Below are positions 3,366 to 44,313 of a stretch of DNA of 64,000 bases, piece after piece. The translations under genes were made by a program, and so were the position numbers. The stretch is from Collinsella aerofaciens (GTDB taxonomy: Bacteria > Actinomycetota > Coriobacteriia > Coriobacteriales > Coriobacteriaceae): NCBI RefSeq assembly GCF_002736145.1, contig NZ_CP024160.1, positions 1,302,001 to 1,366,000 of the forward strand, read 5' to 3'. Position 1 is the stretch's first letter. Every line of letters begins with the position of its first letter. Below the pieces are notes generated by a model. That model did no database searches, was not told where the DNA came from, and saw only the letters and a program-made list of their open reading frames with translations.

Positions 3366-6300
3366 TTACTTCTTAATGCCGCGCCCCAGACGCTCGGCGA
3401 CCGATGCAACGGCCTCTTCGCTGGCCGGCCCGCAGCTCACGCAGCCGTCATGTGCACGCATCTGGCCGGTAACCTCGTCCATCGCGAGCGGTGCCACCTT
3501 CTCGAGCTTAAAGCCCTTGCCGGCGCGCATGTTTTCCTTGGCAACGCTGATCATGAGCTTAATACGGTTGAGTTGGTTGACCTCGGACGCGCCAGGGTCG
3601 TAGTCCACCGCGACAATGTTGCTCTCGGGGTGCTGGCGGCGTAGCTCCTTGATCACGGCCTTGCCCACCACGTGGTTGGGCAGGCACGCGAAGGGCTGCG
3701 TGCAGATGATGTTGGGCGCACCGTGATCGATCAGGTCGAGCATCTCGGCCGTAAGCAACCAGCCCTCGCCCATGTTGTTGCACACCGAAAGCACCGTGCG
3801 GGCCTTATCGGCCATGGTGCCGATGCGCTCGGGCGCCTCAAAGCGGCGGGACTTTTCGAGCATCTCTTCCACCGGCGTGCGCATCCAGTCCACGAGCTTG
3901 ATGAGCGCCTGCATACCAGCGCGCGTGGTAGCAGAGCTTCCCAGCTCGTCCTTCTGCAGCTCGGCGTTGCTCATGGAGTACAGGAAGAAGTCAAGCAGGC
4001 CCGGCACTACGGCCTCGCAGCCCTCGCGCTCGATGACATCGACCACGTGGTTGTTGGCTGTGGGGTGGAACTTGACCAAGATCTCACCGACCACGCCCAC
4101 GCGCGGCTTGGTACCCTCGCCCACGAGCGGCATAGTATCGAACGCGCGGATGGCCTCACGGCACAGCTTGGTGTAGTTGTGGCGGTTGAACTTGGGCGCC
4201 AGCTTGCGGGCGCGCGCCATGTACTCCTCGTAGAGTGCGTTGGCAGCGCCGGGCGTGGCCTCGTACGGGCGGCAACGATAGAGCATCTGCATCATCACGT
4301 CGCCAAAGAGCACCGCGTACACGGCTTGCTTAAGCAGCGCCGGCGTAATCTTAAAGCCGGGGTTGTCCTCGCCGAGCGCCACGGCCGAAAGCGAGATCAC
4401 CGGGATCTCGGGGTGGCCGCTCTCGCGCAGGGCCTTGCGGATGAGTGCGATGTAGTTGGTGGCACGGCAGCCGCCGCCGGTCTGGCTGATGACCACGGCC
4501 GTCTTGGACAGGTCGTACCGACCGCTCTCGATGGCCTCCATAATCTGGCCCGTTACCAGGATCGACGGATAGCAAATGTCATTGTTCACATAGCGCAGAC
4601 CGGCCTCGACGGCATCGTGATCGGTCGAGGGCAGCAGTTCCAGGTTATAGCCAGCACCGCGGAACACCTCTTTGACCAGGTCGAAGTGGATCGGCGCCAT
4701 CTGCGGGCACAGGATGGTGTAGCCCTCCTCGCGCATCTGCTCGGTAAAGGGCACCTTGGGCCACGCGGTCGAAGCACTCTCGCGCTGAGCCTCAAACGTG
4801 TACTTGCGGCTCGCGAACGCGGGGGCATCCGTGGAGGGCGCCACCGGCGCGGCATCGCCCTGCTCGTAGGCCTCGCCCGCGGCCGTGGCCTCGGCCAAGC
4901 GCTCGGCCTCCTGGTCCTTGAGCGCTGCCATGAGCGAGCGAATACGGATACGCGCGGCGCCCAAGTTGGACACCTCGTCAATCTTGAGCACGGTGTAGAT
5001 CTTGCCGCTGGCCTCAAGGATCTCCTGCACCTGGTCGGTGGTCAGAGCGTCCAGACCGCAGCCGAAAGAGTTGAGCTGAATCAGGTCCAAATCGTTGCGC
5101 ATCGTCACAAAACGGGCGACGGCGTACAGGCGGCTGTGGTACATCCACTGGTCGACGACGCGAATCGGACGCTCGGGCTTTACCAGATGCGCGAGCGAAT
5201 CCTCGGTAAAAACCGCAAAGCCAAAGCTCGAGATAAGCTCGGGCAGGGCATGGTTGATCTCGGGGTCGTTATGGTAGGGACGGCCGGCGAGCACGATGCC
5301 GTGACCGCCGTGGTCCTCGACCCACTTAAGAGCCTCCTCGCCCATAGTCTGGATGTCCTCGTGGAAACGCGCATCGGCCTCAAAGGCAGCGTTGACGGCG
5401 GCATCGACCTCGGAGCGCGTGATTTTAGGACCACGCACGCGACCGCGACCGGCCTCAGCATCGGCCACACGGTCGACGGCGAGCACCTGGTACAGACGGC
5501 GCTTGAGCTCGGTCTTGTCGTGATAGGGCACAAACGGGTACAGAAACTCGATGTTCTGCTCGCGGATCTCGTCGATGTTGAGCGCCAGCGCCGTGGGGTA
5601 GCTCATGACGATGGGACAGTTGTAACAGTTGCCAGCCGTCGGGTCCTCCTTGCGCTCCCAGCGCACGCACGGCATCCAAATGAAGTCGACATCGCGGTCG
5701 ATAAGGTTCATCACATGGCCGTGGCTCATCTTTGCCGGGTAGCACACGCTCTCGGACGGCATGGACTCGATGCCCGCCTGGTAGGTCTTCTTGCTCGACT
5801 GGTCGGACAGCTGCACGCTAAAGCCCAAGCGCGTAAAGAACGCGTGCCAGAAGGGGTAGTTCTCGTACATGTTGAGCGCGCGGGGGATGCCGACGGTACC
5901 GCGCGGGGCCTCGTCGGGGCTCAGCACCTCGCGGTTAAACAGCAGCTCGTTTTTCTTTTTGAAGAGGTTGGGGGCCTCGGTCTTCTGCTTTTTGTGGCCG
6001 GCGCCCTTCTCGCAGCGGTTGCCGGTAATGAAGCGCCTGCCGCCGCCAAAGTCGTTGACGGTGAGCTGGCAGTTGTTGGAGCAGCGACCGCAGCGGACAT
6101 GCTTTTGCGTCACGGTAAGGTGCGCGATGTCCTCAGCCGAAAGGATGGTCGAAGTGCCGTCGGCGCCAGCGCGATCGCGGGCGAGCAGGGCCGCACCATA
6201 GGCGCCCATGCAGCCGGCGATATCGGGACGCACGGCATGAACGCCGGTGAGCTGCTCAAACGCGCGCAGCGTGGCGTCGGACATAAAGGTGCCGCCCTGG

Positions 6301-8147
6301 ACGATCACCTGGCTGCCGATCTCCTTGGGGTCGCGCAGCTTAATGACCTTGAACAGGGCGTTCTTGATGACGGAATAGGACAGGCCGGCCGCGATGTCGC
6401 CCACCGTGGCGCCTTCCTTTTGCGCCTGCTTGACGCGCGAGTTCATAAAGACCGTGCAGCGGCTGCCCAGGTCGACGGGGGCCTTGGCATGGATGGCGGC
6501 ATCGGCAAACGCGCGCACGTCCATGTTCATAGACACGGCGAAACTCTCGATAAAGCTGCCGCAACCCGACGAGCAGGCCTCGTTGAGCATGATGTGCTCG
6601 ATGACGCCGTCCTTGACGCGCAGGCACTTCATGTCCTGGCCGCCAATGTCCAGAATAAACTCGACGCCGGGCAGGAACGCCTTGGCACCGCGCAAGTGCG
6701 CGACGGTCTCGATCTCGCCGGAATCGGCCTTGAGGGCCTCGATGAGCAGCGCCTCGCCGTAGCCCGTGGTAGTCACGTGGCCGATGGTGCAGCCCGCGGG
6801 GATGTGGTTGTAGAAATCGGCCATGATGACCTTGGCCGTGCCCAGGATGTCGCCGTTGTTGTTGCCGTACCAGGTGTGCAGCAGCTGGCCGTCCTCGCCC
6901 ACGAGCGCGGCCTTCATGGTGGTGGAACCGGCGTCGATGCCAATGAACACGCGGCCGGTGTAGCCTTCGAGTTTGCCCTTGGGGACGACTTCCTGGTCGT
7001 GGCGGGTTTTGAACTCGGCGAAGTCCTCGTCGGTAGCAAAGAGCGGATCCAGGCGCTCGACCTCGGCACCCTGTGTGTCACCCAGGGCATCGATAGCCTC
7101 GATGAGCTGCGGGAACGTGCTGAGCTTGTTGGACTCATGCGCCATGGCGGCGCCGCTCGCCACAAACAGGTGAGCGTTTTGGGGCACAATGCGGTGCTCC
7201 TCGTCCAGGTTGAGCGTGAGGTAGAAGCGGTGGCGCAGCTCGGAGAGATACTGCAGCGGGCCGCCCAGGAAGGCGACGTTGCCGCGGATGGGACGGCCGC
7301 ACGCCAGGCCCGAGATGGTCTGGGTCACGACGGCTTGGAAGATGGAAGCGGCGACGTCCTCGGGACGGGCGCCTTCGTTGAGCAGCGGCTGCACGTCGGT
7401 CTTGGCAAAAACGCCGCAGCGGCTGGCGATGGGATAGATGGTGGTGGCGTTGGCCGCGAGTTCGTTGAGGCCGCTGGCGTCGGTGTGCAGCAGAGTGGCC
7501 ATCTGGTCGATGAAGGCGCCCGTGCCGCCGGCGCAGGTGCCGTTCATGCGCTGCTCGATGCCGTTGTCGAAGTAGATGATCTTGGCGTCCTCGCCGCCCA
7601 GCTCGATGGCAACATCGGTGGCCGGGATGAGGGTCTCGACGGCACGCTTGCTGGCGATGACCTCCTGGACAAACTCCAGGCCGAGCCACTGAGATAGCAG
7701 CAGACCGCCCGAGCCGGTGATGGCGCAGGTCATCTGGGCCGTCGGCAGCACGGTCGCAGCGCCCTCGAACAGGTCGCGGGCGCAAGCGCGGACGTCGGTG
7801 TGGTGGCGCTGGTACTTGGCGTAGACAATCTGGTTGTCGTCGTTGAGCACAGCGAGCTTAACGGTGGTGGAGCCCACGTCGATGCCCAGGTGCAGGTTGC
7901 CGCGAGCGGCCTCGGGGTTGAAGATCGCGCCTTCGGGGGCGTGGGCGGCGGCTACGGGCTCAGCGGCAGTGACGGGCTCGCTAGCGACGGGCGTCTCCCC
8001 TGCCGCGTTCTTGGCCTCGGCAACAGCCTCGGCAACTTTCTCGGCAGCCGCGGTCGCGGCCTTCTGCGCGGCGTCCACCACGGCGGGCGCGGCCTCGCGT
8101 GCGGCAGCAACCACACGGTCCTTAATGCCCTCGACGAGTTTGCTCAT
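3366..8147 (-). CDS. Giant 2-hydroxyacyl-CoA dehydratase-type activase with two ASKHA domains
   Basis: 1593 residues. After an Ala-rich helical leader (1-85) comes one ASKHA ATPase domain of the BcrA/BadF/HgdC type (GIDVGSTTVKLAV at 88, ELGGEDAKI, GTCAGGTGAFID), then a second from about 400 (GIDAGSTTMKAAL, DIGGQDMKC, ACSSGCGSFIE). In HgdC-type activases the Cys between the two halves binds a 4Fe-4S cluster at the dimer interface; both repeats keep such a Cys. A Cys cluster CGRCSNNC near 684 follows, then DUF2229-like and HgdB-like regions with more conserved Cys (SVCYPAKMSHGH, NCYNCP, DICYPS) and a terminal CVSCGP. The family couples ATP hydrolysis to low-potential electron transfer; the acceptor here is unknown and no dehydratase subunits lie alongside. 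GAGGAG precedes the ATG. It is co-transcribed with the TetR gene 12 bases upstream. Confidence 0.88.
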   Translation of the reverse strand: MSKLVEGIKDRVVAAAREAAPAVVDAAQKAATAAAEKVAEAVAEAKNAAGETPVASEPVTAAEPVAAAHAPEGAIFNPEAARGNLHLGIDVGSTTVKLAVLNDDNQIVYAKYQRHHTDVRACARDLFEGAATVLPTAQMTCAITGSGGLLLSQWLGLEFVQEVIASKRAVETLIPATDVAIELGGEDAKIIYFDNGIEQRMNGTCAGGTGAFIDQMATLLHTDASGLNELAANATTIYPIASRCGVFAKTDVQPLLNEGARPEDVAASIFQAVVTQTISGLACGRPIRGNVAFLGGPLQYLSELRHRFYLTLNLDEEHRIVPQNAHLFVASGAAMAHESNKLSTFPQLIEAIDALGDTQGAEVERLDPLFATDEDFAEFKTRHDQEVVPKGKLEGYTGRVFIGIDAGSTTMKAALVGEDGQLLHTWYGNNNGDILGTAKVIMADFYNHIPAGCTIGHVTTTGYGEALLIEALKADSGEIETVAHLRGAKAFLPGVEFILDIGGQDMKCLRVKDGVIEHIMLNEACSSGCGSFIESFAVSMNMDVRAFADAAIHAKAPVDLGSRCTVFMNSRVKQAQKEGATVGDIAAGLSYSVIKNALFKVIKLRDPKEIGSQVIVQGGTFMSDATLRAFEQLTGVHAVRPDIAGCMGAYGAALLARDRAGADGTSTILSAEDIAHLTVTQKHVRCGRCSNNCQLTVNDFGGGRRFITGNRCEKGAGHKKQKTEAPNLFKKKNELLFNREVLSPDEAPRGTVGIPRALNMYENYPFWHAFFTRLGFSVQLSDQSSKKTYQAGIESMPSESVCYPAKMSHGHVMNLIDRDVDFIWMPCVRWERKEDPTAGNCYNCPIVMSYPTALALNIDEIREQNIEFLYPFVPYHDKTELKRRLYQVLAVDRVADAEAGRGRVRGPKITRSEVDAAVNAAFEADARFHEDIQTMGEEALKWVEDHGGHGIVLAGRPYHNDPEINHALPELISSFGFAVFTEDSLAHLVKPERPIRVVDQWMYHSRLYAVARFVTMRNDLDLIQLNSFGCGLDALTTDQVQEILEASGKIYTVLKIDEVSNLGAARIRIRSLMAALKDQEAERLAEATAAGEAYEQGDAAPVAPSTDAPAFASRKYTFEAQRESASTAWPKVPFTEQMREEGYTILCPQMAPIHFDLVKEVFRGAGYNLELLPSTDHDAVEAGLRYVNNDICYPSILVTGQIMEAIESGRYDLSKTAVVISQTGGGCRATNYIALIRKALRESGHPEIPVISLSAVALGEDNPGFKITPALLKQAVYAVLFGDVMMQMLYRCRPYEATPGAANALYEEYMARARKLAPKFNRHNYTKLCREAIRAFDTMPLVGEGTKPRVGVVGEILVKFHPTANNHVVDVIEREGCEAVVPGLLDFFLYSMSNAELQKDELGSSATTRAGMQALIKLVDWMRTPVEEMLEKSRRFEAPERIGTMADKARTVLSVCNNMGEGWLLTAEMLDLIDHGAPNIICTQPFACLPNHVVGKAVIKELRRQHPESNIVAVDYDPGASEVNQLNRIKLMISVAKENMRAGKGFKLEKVAPLAMDEVTGQMRAHDGCVSCGPASEEAVASVAERLGRGIKK

Positions 8148-8159
8148 CTGTCTCTCCTC

Positions 8160-8870
8160 TTAGTTGTTGGACTCGACGGTTGCGGTGGTGTCGACCGCAT
8201 CCTCGAGCTGCAGATTCAATAGCTTCATGCCGTATTCCGGCACGTTGATATCGATGGGTTGGCCATACAGGTCGCCGGGGCGCACAAAGGCGATGACCGT
8301 CATAATGCGCGCCATGGTCTCGGGCGATTCAGAAAGGTCACGCTCAAACCAACGTTGGATCATGCCGACCTCGGCACTCACGACATAGGTGACGTAGTAG
8401 TCAAAGAAGGTGCCCAGCGCCAAGCCCAAAATGCCCGTCTGTGCACGCGGCACCACGGCCTCGCGTGCGGTATCGATGATCTTTTTAATAAAGGCGGGGT
8501 CGCCGCCCGGGCCCAGCAGGGCCCCGATAAGGTCGCGATTAGCCGCAAGATAGCGAAGCAGCTCAACCGAACCGGGTGCCGGCTCGAGCTCGTCGATATT
8601 GCGGTAAAGATCGGGTAATTGAGCTGCGGTGATAAGCTCCACCCGCTCGCGAATCTCGGCAAGCAGGCCGTCCTCGATCTGGCTGATAAAGTCGGGGATA
8701 TCGCGGTAGTGCGAATAGAACGTGCGGCGTGTAAGACCGGCGCGCTCGGTGAGCGACGCGACGTTAATGCGCGAAAGGTCGCCGCTTTCGGCAAGCTCGC
8801 TGGCAAGCGCCTGGCGAAGGGCACGCTGCGAGCGAAGGGACCGGCGGTCGCATTTCTCGAGCTGGGACAA
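8160..8870 (-). CDS. TetR family regulator upstream of the activase
   Basis: 236 residues. Residues 14-60 carry the TetR helix-turn-helix (INVASLTERAGLTRRTFYSH), followed by an all-helical ligand domain. It is the first gene of an operon with the giant activase, only 12 bases apart, so it probably controls its own operon. Palindromes in its upstream region fit autorepression. The ligand is unknown; an acyl-CoA is a reasonable guess from context only. The start is ATG preceded on the minus strand by AAGGAGG. Confidence 0.88.
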   Translation of the reverse strand: MSQLEKCDRRSLRSQRALRQALASELAESGDLSRINVASLTERAGLTRRTFYSHYRDIPDFISQIEDGLLAEIRERVELITAAQLPDLYRNIDELEPAPGSVELLRYLAANRDLIGALLGPGGDPAFIKKIIDTAREAVVPRAQTGILGLALGTFFDYYVTYVVSAEVGMIQRWFERDLSESPETMARIMTVIAFVRPGDLYGQPIDINVPEYGMKLLNLQLEDAVDTTATVESNN

Positions 8871-8892
8871 GCGTCCTCCTTGTTACTCAGCC

Positions 8893-8936
8893 TGTGCGCT
8901 ATTGCACAGTGCGAGTATTATTGCACACCGTGTGCA
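8893..8936 (-). promoter_or_regulatory. Two operator-like palindromes before the TetR gene
   Basis: TGTGC-N6-GCACA (8893-8908) and TGCACAC-C-GTGTGCA (8922-8936) lie 23 and 52 bases upstream of the TetR start and share the GCACA/TGTGC core. They are the expected size and place for autoregulatory TetR operators. Confidence 0.6.
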
Positions 8937-8963
8937 TCAACACGTAAAGGCAATATTTAGATT

Positions 8964-8990
8964 GTGACAAAGGGGCGTCCCTTTGCCACA
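8964..8990. repeat. Short REP-like hairpin, left flank of the toxin-antitoxin candidate
   Basis: GTGACAAAGGGGCGTCCCTT plus TGCCACA forms a hairpin (GTGaCAAAGGG with CCCTTTGcCAC). A near-identical sequence in opposite orientation lies at 9359-9386, so the two enclose a 368-bp segment. Confidence 0.7.
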
Positions 8991-9010
8991 TTCCACGGCG
9001 GCATTACCGA

Positions 9011-9039
9011 TTGTCCAAAAAGTCATTCGTGGGTAGAAT
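9011..9039 (+). promoter_or_regulatory. Promoter of the convergent small RNA
   Basis: TTGTCC, exactly 17 bases, then TAGAAT: a good sigma-70 pair pointing rightward with no plausible reading frame behind it before the terminator at 9094-9128. Predicted transcript start is near 9046. Confidence 0.6.
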
Positions 9040-9045
9040 GGTGTC

Positions 9046-9131
9046 GACGGCAGCCCAAGTTGTAGCTGGCTGGGCAGCGCCGTTGCTTGGATTAAGGGGT
9101 CAACGCCTTAGCGGCGGCGACCCCTTTTACG
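9046..9131 (+). ncRNA. Candidate antisense RNA (antitoxin) convergent with the small peptide gene
   Basis: A predicted 85-nt transcript from the promoter at 9011-9039 to the bidirectional terminator. It has no start codon with a ribosome-binding site. Its 3-prime part overlaps the last codons and terminator of the 41-residue peptide mRNA on the other strand, so the two RNAs would be complementary there. The first 20 bases after TAGAAT (ending in ACGGCAG) resemble those of the opposing transcript. Confidence 0.45.
9094..9128. terminator. Bidirectional terminator shared by peptide gene and small RNA
   Basis: AAGGGGTC pairs with GACCCCTT around a 17-base loop that itself contains GCC/GGC pairing. 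It is followed by TTTTA on the plus strand and by AATCC after the A/T flank on the minus strand. The peptide stop codon (9110-9108) lies inside the loop. Confidence 0.65.
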
Positions 9132-9233
9132 TTGCTTCGAACGTTGCTTGAGTGCCTCGGAAAGCCCGACGAGCGCCGTGAAGAACGAGACCAAAGCGGT
9201 CAGAAGTCTCACGAAATCAATCAGATCGGTCAT
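9108..9233 (-). CDS. 41-residue hydrophobic basic peptide, candidate type I toxin
   Basis: Read on the minus strand from ATG 9233, which follows GGGAGGTG at the right distance (an ATG six bases earlier is too close to it). The product starts MTDLIDFVRLLTALVSFF, continues as one hydrophobic helix to about residue 24, and ends with a strongly basic tail (KQRSKQRKRGRRR). A single short membrane helix with a charged tail is typical of type I toxins of the Fst/TisB/holin-like kind. A convergent small RNA with a shared terminator supports this. Too short for most gene callers. It could instead be a small membrane regulator of a neighbouring gene. I do not recognise a specific family. Confidence 0.6.
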   Translation of the reverse strand: MTDLIDFVRLLTALVSFFTALVGLSEALKQRSKQRKRGRRR

Positions 9234-9297
9234 GGGCATCACCTCCCATCAGATGGAGGGCGTTGCCCGGCACATGGAACTGCCGTCAACGATACCG

Positions 9298-9340
9298 ATT
9301 CTACCAGAGCCTAGTTATATATACGAATATATGTTCGTAT
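9298..9340 (-). promoter_or_regulatory. Promoter and palindrome upstream of the small peptide gene
   Basis: On the minus strand TAGAAT (9303-9298) is a good -10. The -35 region is weak (TTCGTA with an 18-base spacer) and lies inside a palindrome ATACGAA-N6-TTCGTAT at 9321-9340 that could bind a repressor or activator. The 5-prime leader would be about 58 bases. Confidence 0.45.
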
Positions 9341-9358
9341 TCCAAGCACACAGACCCC

Positions 9359-9386
9359 TGTGGCAAAGGGGCTGTCCCTTTGTCAC
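9359..9386. repeat. Short REP-like hairpin, right flank; also 3-prime end of the HAD gene
   Basis: TGTGGCAAAGGGGCTGTCCC plus TTTGTCAC, the inverted partner of 8964-8990. It begins one base after the HAD stop codon and could also act as that gene's 3-prime stabilising hairpin. Confidence 0.7.
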
Positions 9387-10244
9387 TTATTCGATGATGG
9401 TGCGGGAGTTTTGCTTGTGCATGGTGGCGAGCATGTGTTTGGGGACGGCGTGGACCATGCAACTGCCGATAGTCGCGTTCGCGGCAGCCTTGGCTGCATC
9501 GCTTGCGTTTTTGGTCGCGTAGCTGTGACGGAAGCGCTTGAGCATGGCGATGTCGTTGCCGCCGTCTCCATAGACCGCGACCTCGTCCTCGGCAATGCCG
9601 TAGTAACCCGCCAGCCAGGCCACGCTCTCGCCCTTGTTACACGCCACGTCCGTGATCTCGAACATCACCGGATCGAACGGCGCGTTGACCACACGGTCCG
9701 AGCGCTCGGCAAGATACGCCTTAAGATCACGCTCCAGCTCGGGCGAGGTCACGCGACAGTTGATCTTGCACACATCGTGGCGCAGGATGTCACCGATCGA
9801 CTGGTCGAAGTACTGTTCCTCGTGGTACCCGCCACGCGCACGCATGCCGCGCATCACGATGCGCTTGATAGGGCTGTCTTTTTTAAAGCCCGCCTGATGC
9901 ATCTCGAACGAACCGCTCGAGTACATGCCATCGGGTGTGGAGCAGTCAAAACAGATATCCGGAAACTCCTTGAGCAGCTCCTCGGTGATCTGAGGGTCGA
10001 TGGTCCAGGTCTTGAGCACCTCGCCATGGCTGTCGCGCACGATGGATCCATTGGAGCAGCAGGCGTCAAGCGCCAGGCCCGTAAAGCCATGCTCGCCGAT
10101 CGGCAACGTCGAGCGTCCAGTCGCGGGAACCACGTGGAGTCCGGCCTCGGTCAGCTCGCGAATGGCACGGCGGATGGTCCCATCTGCCTCGTGTAGGGCG
10201 TTCAGCAGCGTTCCGTCTAAGTCACTCGCAAACATCTTGATCAT
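9387..10244 (-). CDS. Cof-type HAD-IIB hydrolase (sugar phosphatase-like)
   Basis: From ATG 10244 the protein is 285 residues. Motif I is DLDGTLL near the N terminus, motif II the ATGRS segment, and motif IV GDGGNDIAML near residue 240, with the cap domain between as in Cof-type (HAD-IIB) phosphatases, which dephosphorylate sugar phosphates, FMN or similar small molecules. Two in-frame ATGs (10250, 10244) are possible; the second has better spacing from AGAGAGG. The ribosome-binding site and the first ATG lie in one arm of a perfect 21-bp inverted repeat, so translation could be blocked by RNA structure. Substrate unknown. Confidence 0.88.
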   Translation of the reverse strand: MIKMFASDLDGTLLNALHEADGTIRRAIRELTEAGLHVVPATGRSTLPIGEHGFTGLALDACCSNGSIVRDSHGEVLKTWTIDPQITEELLKEFPDICFDCSTPDGMYSSGSFEMHQAGFKKDSPIKRIVMRGMRARGGYHEEQYFDQSIGDILRHDVCKINCRVTSPELERDLKAYLAERSDRVVNAPFDPVMFEITDVACNKGESVAWLAGYYGIAEDEVAVYGDGGNDIAMLKRFRHSYATKNASDAAKAAANATIGSCMVHAVPKHMLATMHKQNSRTIIE

Positions 10245-44299: not shown

Positions 44300-44313
44300 C
44301 GAACAGCTGTTCG
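44300..44313 (+). promoter_or_regulatory. LexA (SOS) box
   Basis: CGAAC-AGCT-GTTCG is a perfect match to the CGAAC-N4-GTTCG LexA operator of Gram-positive bacteria. A -10-like TATGAT follows at about 44319, and the GyrI-like gene starts 57 bases downstream. Confidence 0.8.

Follow-up and report, generated by a model that had tools for sequence, protein, structure and literature searches.

A candidate SOS-controlled, type I-like toxin-antitoxin locus in Collinsella aerofaciens and its relatives in the Coriobacteriia

Layout of the locus

The stretch of DNA analysed here (the window; 64,000 nucleotides from Collinsella aerofaciens) contains a small gene on the minus strand, encoding a hydrophobic peptide with a basic tail, that is faced by a predicted small RNA (sRNA) on the plus strand. 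The two overlap at their 3' ends, in a hairpin whose loop holds the stop codon of the peptide. The features are as follows (coordinates in the window, strand, description):

8964..8990, no strand: dispersed 27-bp hairpin repeat, outside the unit
9011..9039, plus: sRNA promoter, TTGTCC-N17-TAGAAT
9045..9085, plus: 5' hairpin of the antitoxin-like sRNA, with a near-invariant stem and a variable loop
9046..9129, plus: predicted antitoxin-like sRNA (about 85 nt) that faces the toxin gene; a covariance model matches 9039-9129
9094..9126, plus: hairpin over the toxin stop codon (in the loop) and sRNA terminator, with a covarying stem and a T-run on the plus strand
9108..9233, minus: toxin-like ORF of 41 aa, MTDLIDFVRLLTALVSFFTALVGLSEALKQRSKQRKRGRRR, plus stop (ORF list, homologues, dN<dS)
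9234..9293, minus: toxin mRNA leader, the first ~45 nt of which resemble the 5' half of the sRNA and are complementary to the tail of a read-through mRNA
9238..9247, minus: Shine-Dalgarno (SD) sequence GGGAGGTGAT, sequestered in a predicted leader hairpin
9298..9303, minus: -10 box of the toxin promoter, TAGAAT, extended (TGG precedes it), with no good -35
9324..9337, minus: candidate LexA/SOS box CGAACATATATTCG, which matches the core at 9/10 positions and covers the -35 region of the toxin promoter
9359..9386, no strand: dispersed 27-bp hairpin repeat, outside the unit

The peptide is read on the minus strand from an ATG at 9233 to a stop codon at 9108-9110, and an alternative in-frame ATG lies at 9239, two codons upstream. 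A first-pass annotation of this DNA had described a leftward 41-residue peptide with a strong ribosome-binding site, a convergent promoter and a stop codon enclosed in a hairpin loop. Re-reading of the coordinates recovered the ORF together with GGGAGGTGAT as well as the hairpin, and TTGTCC-N17-TAGAAT proved to be the only sigma-70-type promoter match within 8860-9500. The same annotation took the hairpin for a terminator shared by both transcripts, a view that had to be abandoned: in 27 loci, the 8 nt that follow the hairpin hold on average 4.4 T's on the sRNA strand versus 1.1 on the toxin strand, and because the T-run is present on the antitoxin strand only, the hairpin is not a bidirectional terminator. 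A consensus terminator was also sought on the toxin strand at the locus and none was found. All intact copies have kept the 5' hairpin of the sRNA, the SD leader and the promoter.

Spread, constraint and decay of the family

The genome to which the window belongs carries one copy of the module. Of 45 Collinsella genomes, 22 gave hits with a tight profile of close relatives, and in these the peptide, the strong ribosome-binding site, the convergent sRNA and the stop-codon hairpin recur together; the relatives in named records are all Collinsella, for the most part C. aerofaciens. The profile was then broadened by adding divergent members to the close relatives, and it picked up the peptide in 57 of the 398 Coriobacteriia genomes, spread over 18 of 153 genera. 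Individual inspection of about 28 distant loci revealed the same layout in nearly all of them: the peptide has a hydrophobic N-terminus that opens with M[DE]L and, as a rule, a basic tail, the leader sequesters the SD, a hairpin covers the stop codon, and a convergent RNA bears a long 5' hairpin. A clean start codon is missing in a minority. Across the family loci the peptides are 37-50 aa long and contain a hydrophobic 17-mer with a KD value of 1.7-2.6, and in 25 of 27 loci the tail carries a net basic charge. One group A pair (the groups are described below) combines a dN of 0 with a dS of 0.24, and dN is smaller than dS in nearly all compared pairs, a pattern of substitution which indicates that purifying selection acts on the peptide.

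None of the families in Pfam, NCBIfam and PHROGs reached the cut-off for the peptides, and the window peptide remained without a match in Pfam even at an E-value of 10. A search of the window against Rfam gave nothing above the cut-off, and the viral and phage collections contained no relatives. As far as searched, the family is apparently specific to the Coriobacteriia. This class-wide spread, the plasmid-borne sisters, the LexA box and the likeness between leader and antitoxin all go beyond the first-pass annotation.

The Collinsella copies sort into four groups (A-D). Group A, which includes the window copy, occupies a single chromosomal site between genes for a HAD hydrolase and a TetR-like protein, and group B copies are also chromosomal. 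Group C includes copies on three complete circular C. aerofaciens plasmids of 23, 27 and 30 kb that carry ParA partition genes and related genes; the coverage of three other group C contigs is about three-fold higher than that of the respective strains' chromosomal contigs, which is the expectation for multi-copy plasmids. The group C plasmids (L062-L064) also have neighbours of the module in common, namely a metallophosphoesterase gene pair and, nearby, a DUF5067 gene. Finally, group D consists of 12 copies in 12 genomes in which the toxin promoter, the SD and the start codon have been lost, and most of which are frameshifted, while the sRNA is intact in all 12. In two group B copies, too, the sRNA survives where the toxin promoter, the SD or the start is gone, and among the copies examined the toxin never occurred without an sRNA. 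Since these data represent only a handful of independent toxin-loss events, we take the asymmetric decay as supporting and not as decisive.

Truncated toxins that end in QRKTI were considered as candidates for a loss of the sRNA and were rejected as such: four truncated copies contain an IS110-family insertion, and in both contiguous cases the sRNA persists, intact, on its far side. The element (with a PF01548 transposase) lies in the 3' end of the toxin gene in four genomes (loci L107, around 4237-8265; L108, around 6922; L088; and L089), the ORF always ending in ..KTI, and the end of the module may be a preferred target. Some genomes have as many as four modules, in part arranged in tandem (L205-L208; L213; L247; L209); the second copy at L209 has lost the leader portion and kept the sRNA.

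The two 27-bp hairpins that flank the unit in the window are inverted relative to each other, as had been reported, and were originally interpreted as the boundaries of a mobile cassette. The hairpin sequence GTGACAAAGGGACAGTCCCTTTGTCAC (also at L027-L034) has 11 forward and 12 reverse matches, which fall at about 12 places of the 2.3 Mb genome, and among the module copies inspected only those at the orthologous group A site are surrounded by these hairpins. Being dispersed in the genome and associated with the module at that site only, they do not bound a cassette.

Putative promoter control and the likeness of leader and antitoxin

In groups A and B, wherever the promoter is intact, the ATG is preceded at exactly -104 by CGAACATATATTCG or CGAACAAACATTCG. 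The pattern CGAAYNNNNRTTCG occurs at 7 sites in the 2.3 Mb genome, a count no higher than that of the reversed control, so that the number of sites is uninformative by itself and it is their positions that inform: further sites precede recA, a Y-family polymerase gene and RarA/MgsA. Within the genus Collinsella, CGAACNNNNGTTYG-like boxes lie upstream of recA in 30 of 30 loci and upstream of lexA in 30 of 31. The toxin box is one base off the recA/lexA core, as is the box of the polymerase gene, CGAACAGGTATTCG. Outside the family, but within the order, the boxes of lexA have the sequence GAACNNNNGTTC. At least 7 of the 8 core bases are present at about -100 in 5 of 30 distant toxin promoters (shuffles gave a mean of 0.37, and 0 of 3000 reached 5). 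The box is absent from the plasmid-borne group C copies and from most distant loci, and the sRNA promoter is without one. From the candidate box at the toxin promoter we infer SOS control; the pairs of plasmid and chromosomal copies are available for asking when this putative control arose or vanished.

Two other LexA-type sites were encountered outside the module. One, the perfect palindrome CGAACAGCTGTTCG at 44300-44313 of the window, lies ~60 nt before the gene for a GyrI-like protein (PF06445) and also precedes recA in other Collinsella. The other is a perfect box, CGAACAACCGTTCG, ~100 nt upstream of the likely start of gyrB at L079 (genome 13571).

The locus has two of the features generally asked of a type I system, namely a conserved small hydrophobic ORF and a predicted convergent antisense RNA that overlaps the 3' end of the toxin gene. 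For the third, a toxic peptide that the RNA would neutralise, the sRNAs kept beside dead toxins give indirect support. We consider it likely, on the basis of comparative sequence data, that the chromosomal copies are SOS-induced, type I-like toxin-antitoxin loci and belong to a new family, which is, as far as searched, specific to the Coriobacteriia. A LexA box and purifying selection would suit any useful SOS effector, and the peptide could accordingly be a non-toxic small membrane protein (e.g. a modulator of division or stress) that is induced by SOS and damped by the antisense RNA. We hold this to be unlikely, since the box-less plasmid copies beside partition genes, the presence of several paralogues per genome and the loss of the toxin where the sRNA is kept are all more in keeping with an addiction module.

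The first 45 nt of the leader are closer to the 5' half of the sRNA from the same locus than to that of other lineages (permutation p = 5e-5 for 22 loci from about 20 lineages; p = 0.0004 in a seven-lineage version). What had been noted before as similar bases at the beginning of both transcripts is a pair of near-copies that co-change across lineages. The shared 5' sequences are inverted copies and not complementary direct repeats. A leader that is like the sRNA is complementary to the tail of its own mRNA, provided that the mRNA reads through the sRNA gene; the predicted duplex between leader and own read-through tail indeed has an energy of -50.1 kcal/mol, whereas mismatched partners give -39.0 kcal/mol (permutation p = 5e-5), with z-values of -2.7 to -7.5 in 21 of 22 loci (locus G018 was not counted in support). 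As the toxin strand has neither a T-run nor a consensus terminator at this position, a read-through toxin mRNA with a 5'-3' foldback is likely, that is, the toxin mRNA probably runs through the antitoxin gene. Folding of 22 loci gave an unpaired probability of 0-0.28 for the SD, which is hidden both with and without the tail, and the foldback is therefore without a clear predicted effect on SD access. Direct pairing between the 5' half of the sRNA and the leader, as sought in the Fst/Ldr DRa/DRb test, found no support, because the duplex was not above shuffles (z about 0) or mismatched partners (p 0.11).

An inverted similarity of ~40 bp that flanks the ORF in every lineage could also exist at the level of the DNA, when leader and sRNA 5' end are the terminal inverted repeats of a small mobile element, homogenised by transposition or gene conversion. 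The occurrence of several copies per genome agrees with this, and a comparison of G-U versus A-C differences between leader and sRNA (45:38, p = 0.51) is compatible with it, as that ratio does not separate RNA pairing from a DNA-level inverted repeat. The aligned similarity begins, however, in the transcribed part, past the -10 boxes, most group A copies share one orthologous site, and neither a target duplication nor a transposase partner was seen, all of which makes such an element very improbable. Even less credit is due to the idea that a trans-acting sRNA is the main product and the peptide gene a passenger. Group D, which retains the sRNA without the toxin, would suit it, but the peptide is under purifying selection, SD and start are conserved in most of the about 20 lineages, and what is left of the toxin in group D is a degraded relative, which is what one expects beside a retained antitoxin.

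Proposed working and relation to known systems

If the locus is the SOS-induced toxin-antitoxin module that we favour, LexA would sit on the toxin promoter, at the motif described above, and toxin mRNA would be made upon DNA damage, while the sRNA, with its box-less promoter, is presumably constitutive. The leader of the toxin mRNA would hide the SD in the predicted hairpin and, judging from the complementarity and its co-change, would pair with the tail of the same read-through molecule. The antitoxin RNA, which is antisense to the mRNA tail and the end of the coding region, would bind there from the loop of the stop-codon hairpin and inactivate the toxin mRNA, probably with RNase III, by analogy with txpA/RatA and par. 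Peptide that is set free would insert in the inner membrane by means of its ~17-residue hydrophobic stretch and basic tail, and would slow or kill the cell. The box-less plasmid sisters would act as plasmid-stabilising modules.

A broader version of this reading, plausible yet somewhat doubtful, is that of an SOS-induced type I family throughout the class, with a plasmid branch that lacks the SOS box. Its antitoxin RNA would repeat the leader in inverted form and compete with it for the tail of the toxin mRNA, forming a mimicry or strand-exchange switch. Such a switch, if true, is not known from other type I systems, and the present set of loci provides comparative data by which a leader-mimicking antitoxin RNA can be tested.

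A 2025 paper (PMC12390103), which adds a cyanobacterial case, states that type I systems had until then been recognised in no groups other than Proteobacteria, Firmicutes and Tenericutes. Going by that one paper and by text searches of part of the literature, the present family would apparently be the first type I system in the Actinomycetota, and would bring such systems to this phylum in common human gut bacteria.

The first-pass annotation had proposed an Fst/par-like or other type I system. The type I-like character is supported by the family, the plasmid sisters and the sRNAs kept beside dead toxins; membership of Fst/par is not. There is a likeness in layout to par_pAD1/Fst (RNA I - RNA II, Enterococcus and relatives; PMC7472228), where toxin mRNA and sRNA also converge and overlap at the 3' ends, and which has an SD-sequestering 5' stem-loop, a hydrophobic peptide with a charged tail, and plasmid as well as chromosomal copies. 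Nevertheless, a true member of that family is the least probable of the alternatives, as the Collinsella peptide has no Pfam match at an E-value of 10 and no PXXXG motif, and the locus has no complementary direct repeats of the DRa/DRb type and a stop-codon hairpin with a T-run on the sRNA strand only (i.e. no terminator on the toxin strand). It further differs from par_pAD1 in its 5' ends, which are identical instead of complementary, and in its candidate LexA box.

With tisB/IstR-1 of Escherichia coli (PMC4147584) the locus shares a small hydrophobic peptide under apparent LexA control and an sRNA that is apparently not SOS-controlled. IstR-1, however, is divergent and binds the 5' UTR, whereas the predicted Collinsella RNA faces the toxin gene and is complementary to the 3' portion of its mRNA, and the peptide is unrelated to TisB (one family member reached an E-value of 0.095 with TisB_toxin, below the cut-off). 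The family would thus pair a tisB-like DNA-damage control with an unrelated peptide and a convergent layout. The txpA/RatA system of Bacillus subtilis (PMC4147584) has a comparable convergent, 3'-overlapping antisense RNA without specific complementarity between sRNA and RBS; no Pfam relation to it was found, and the Collinsella locus adds the putative SOS control and the similarity of leader and antitoxin. The long-distance 5'-3' complementarity of the toxin mRNA and its hidden SD, finally, recall hok/Sok and aapA/IsoA (PMC6733600), from which the Collinsella locus differs in that its antisense RNA lies at the 3' end and the 5' half of the antitoxin is itself a copy of the leader.
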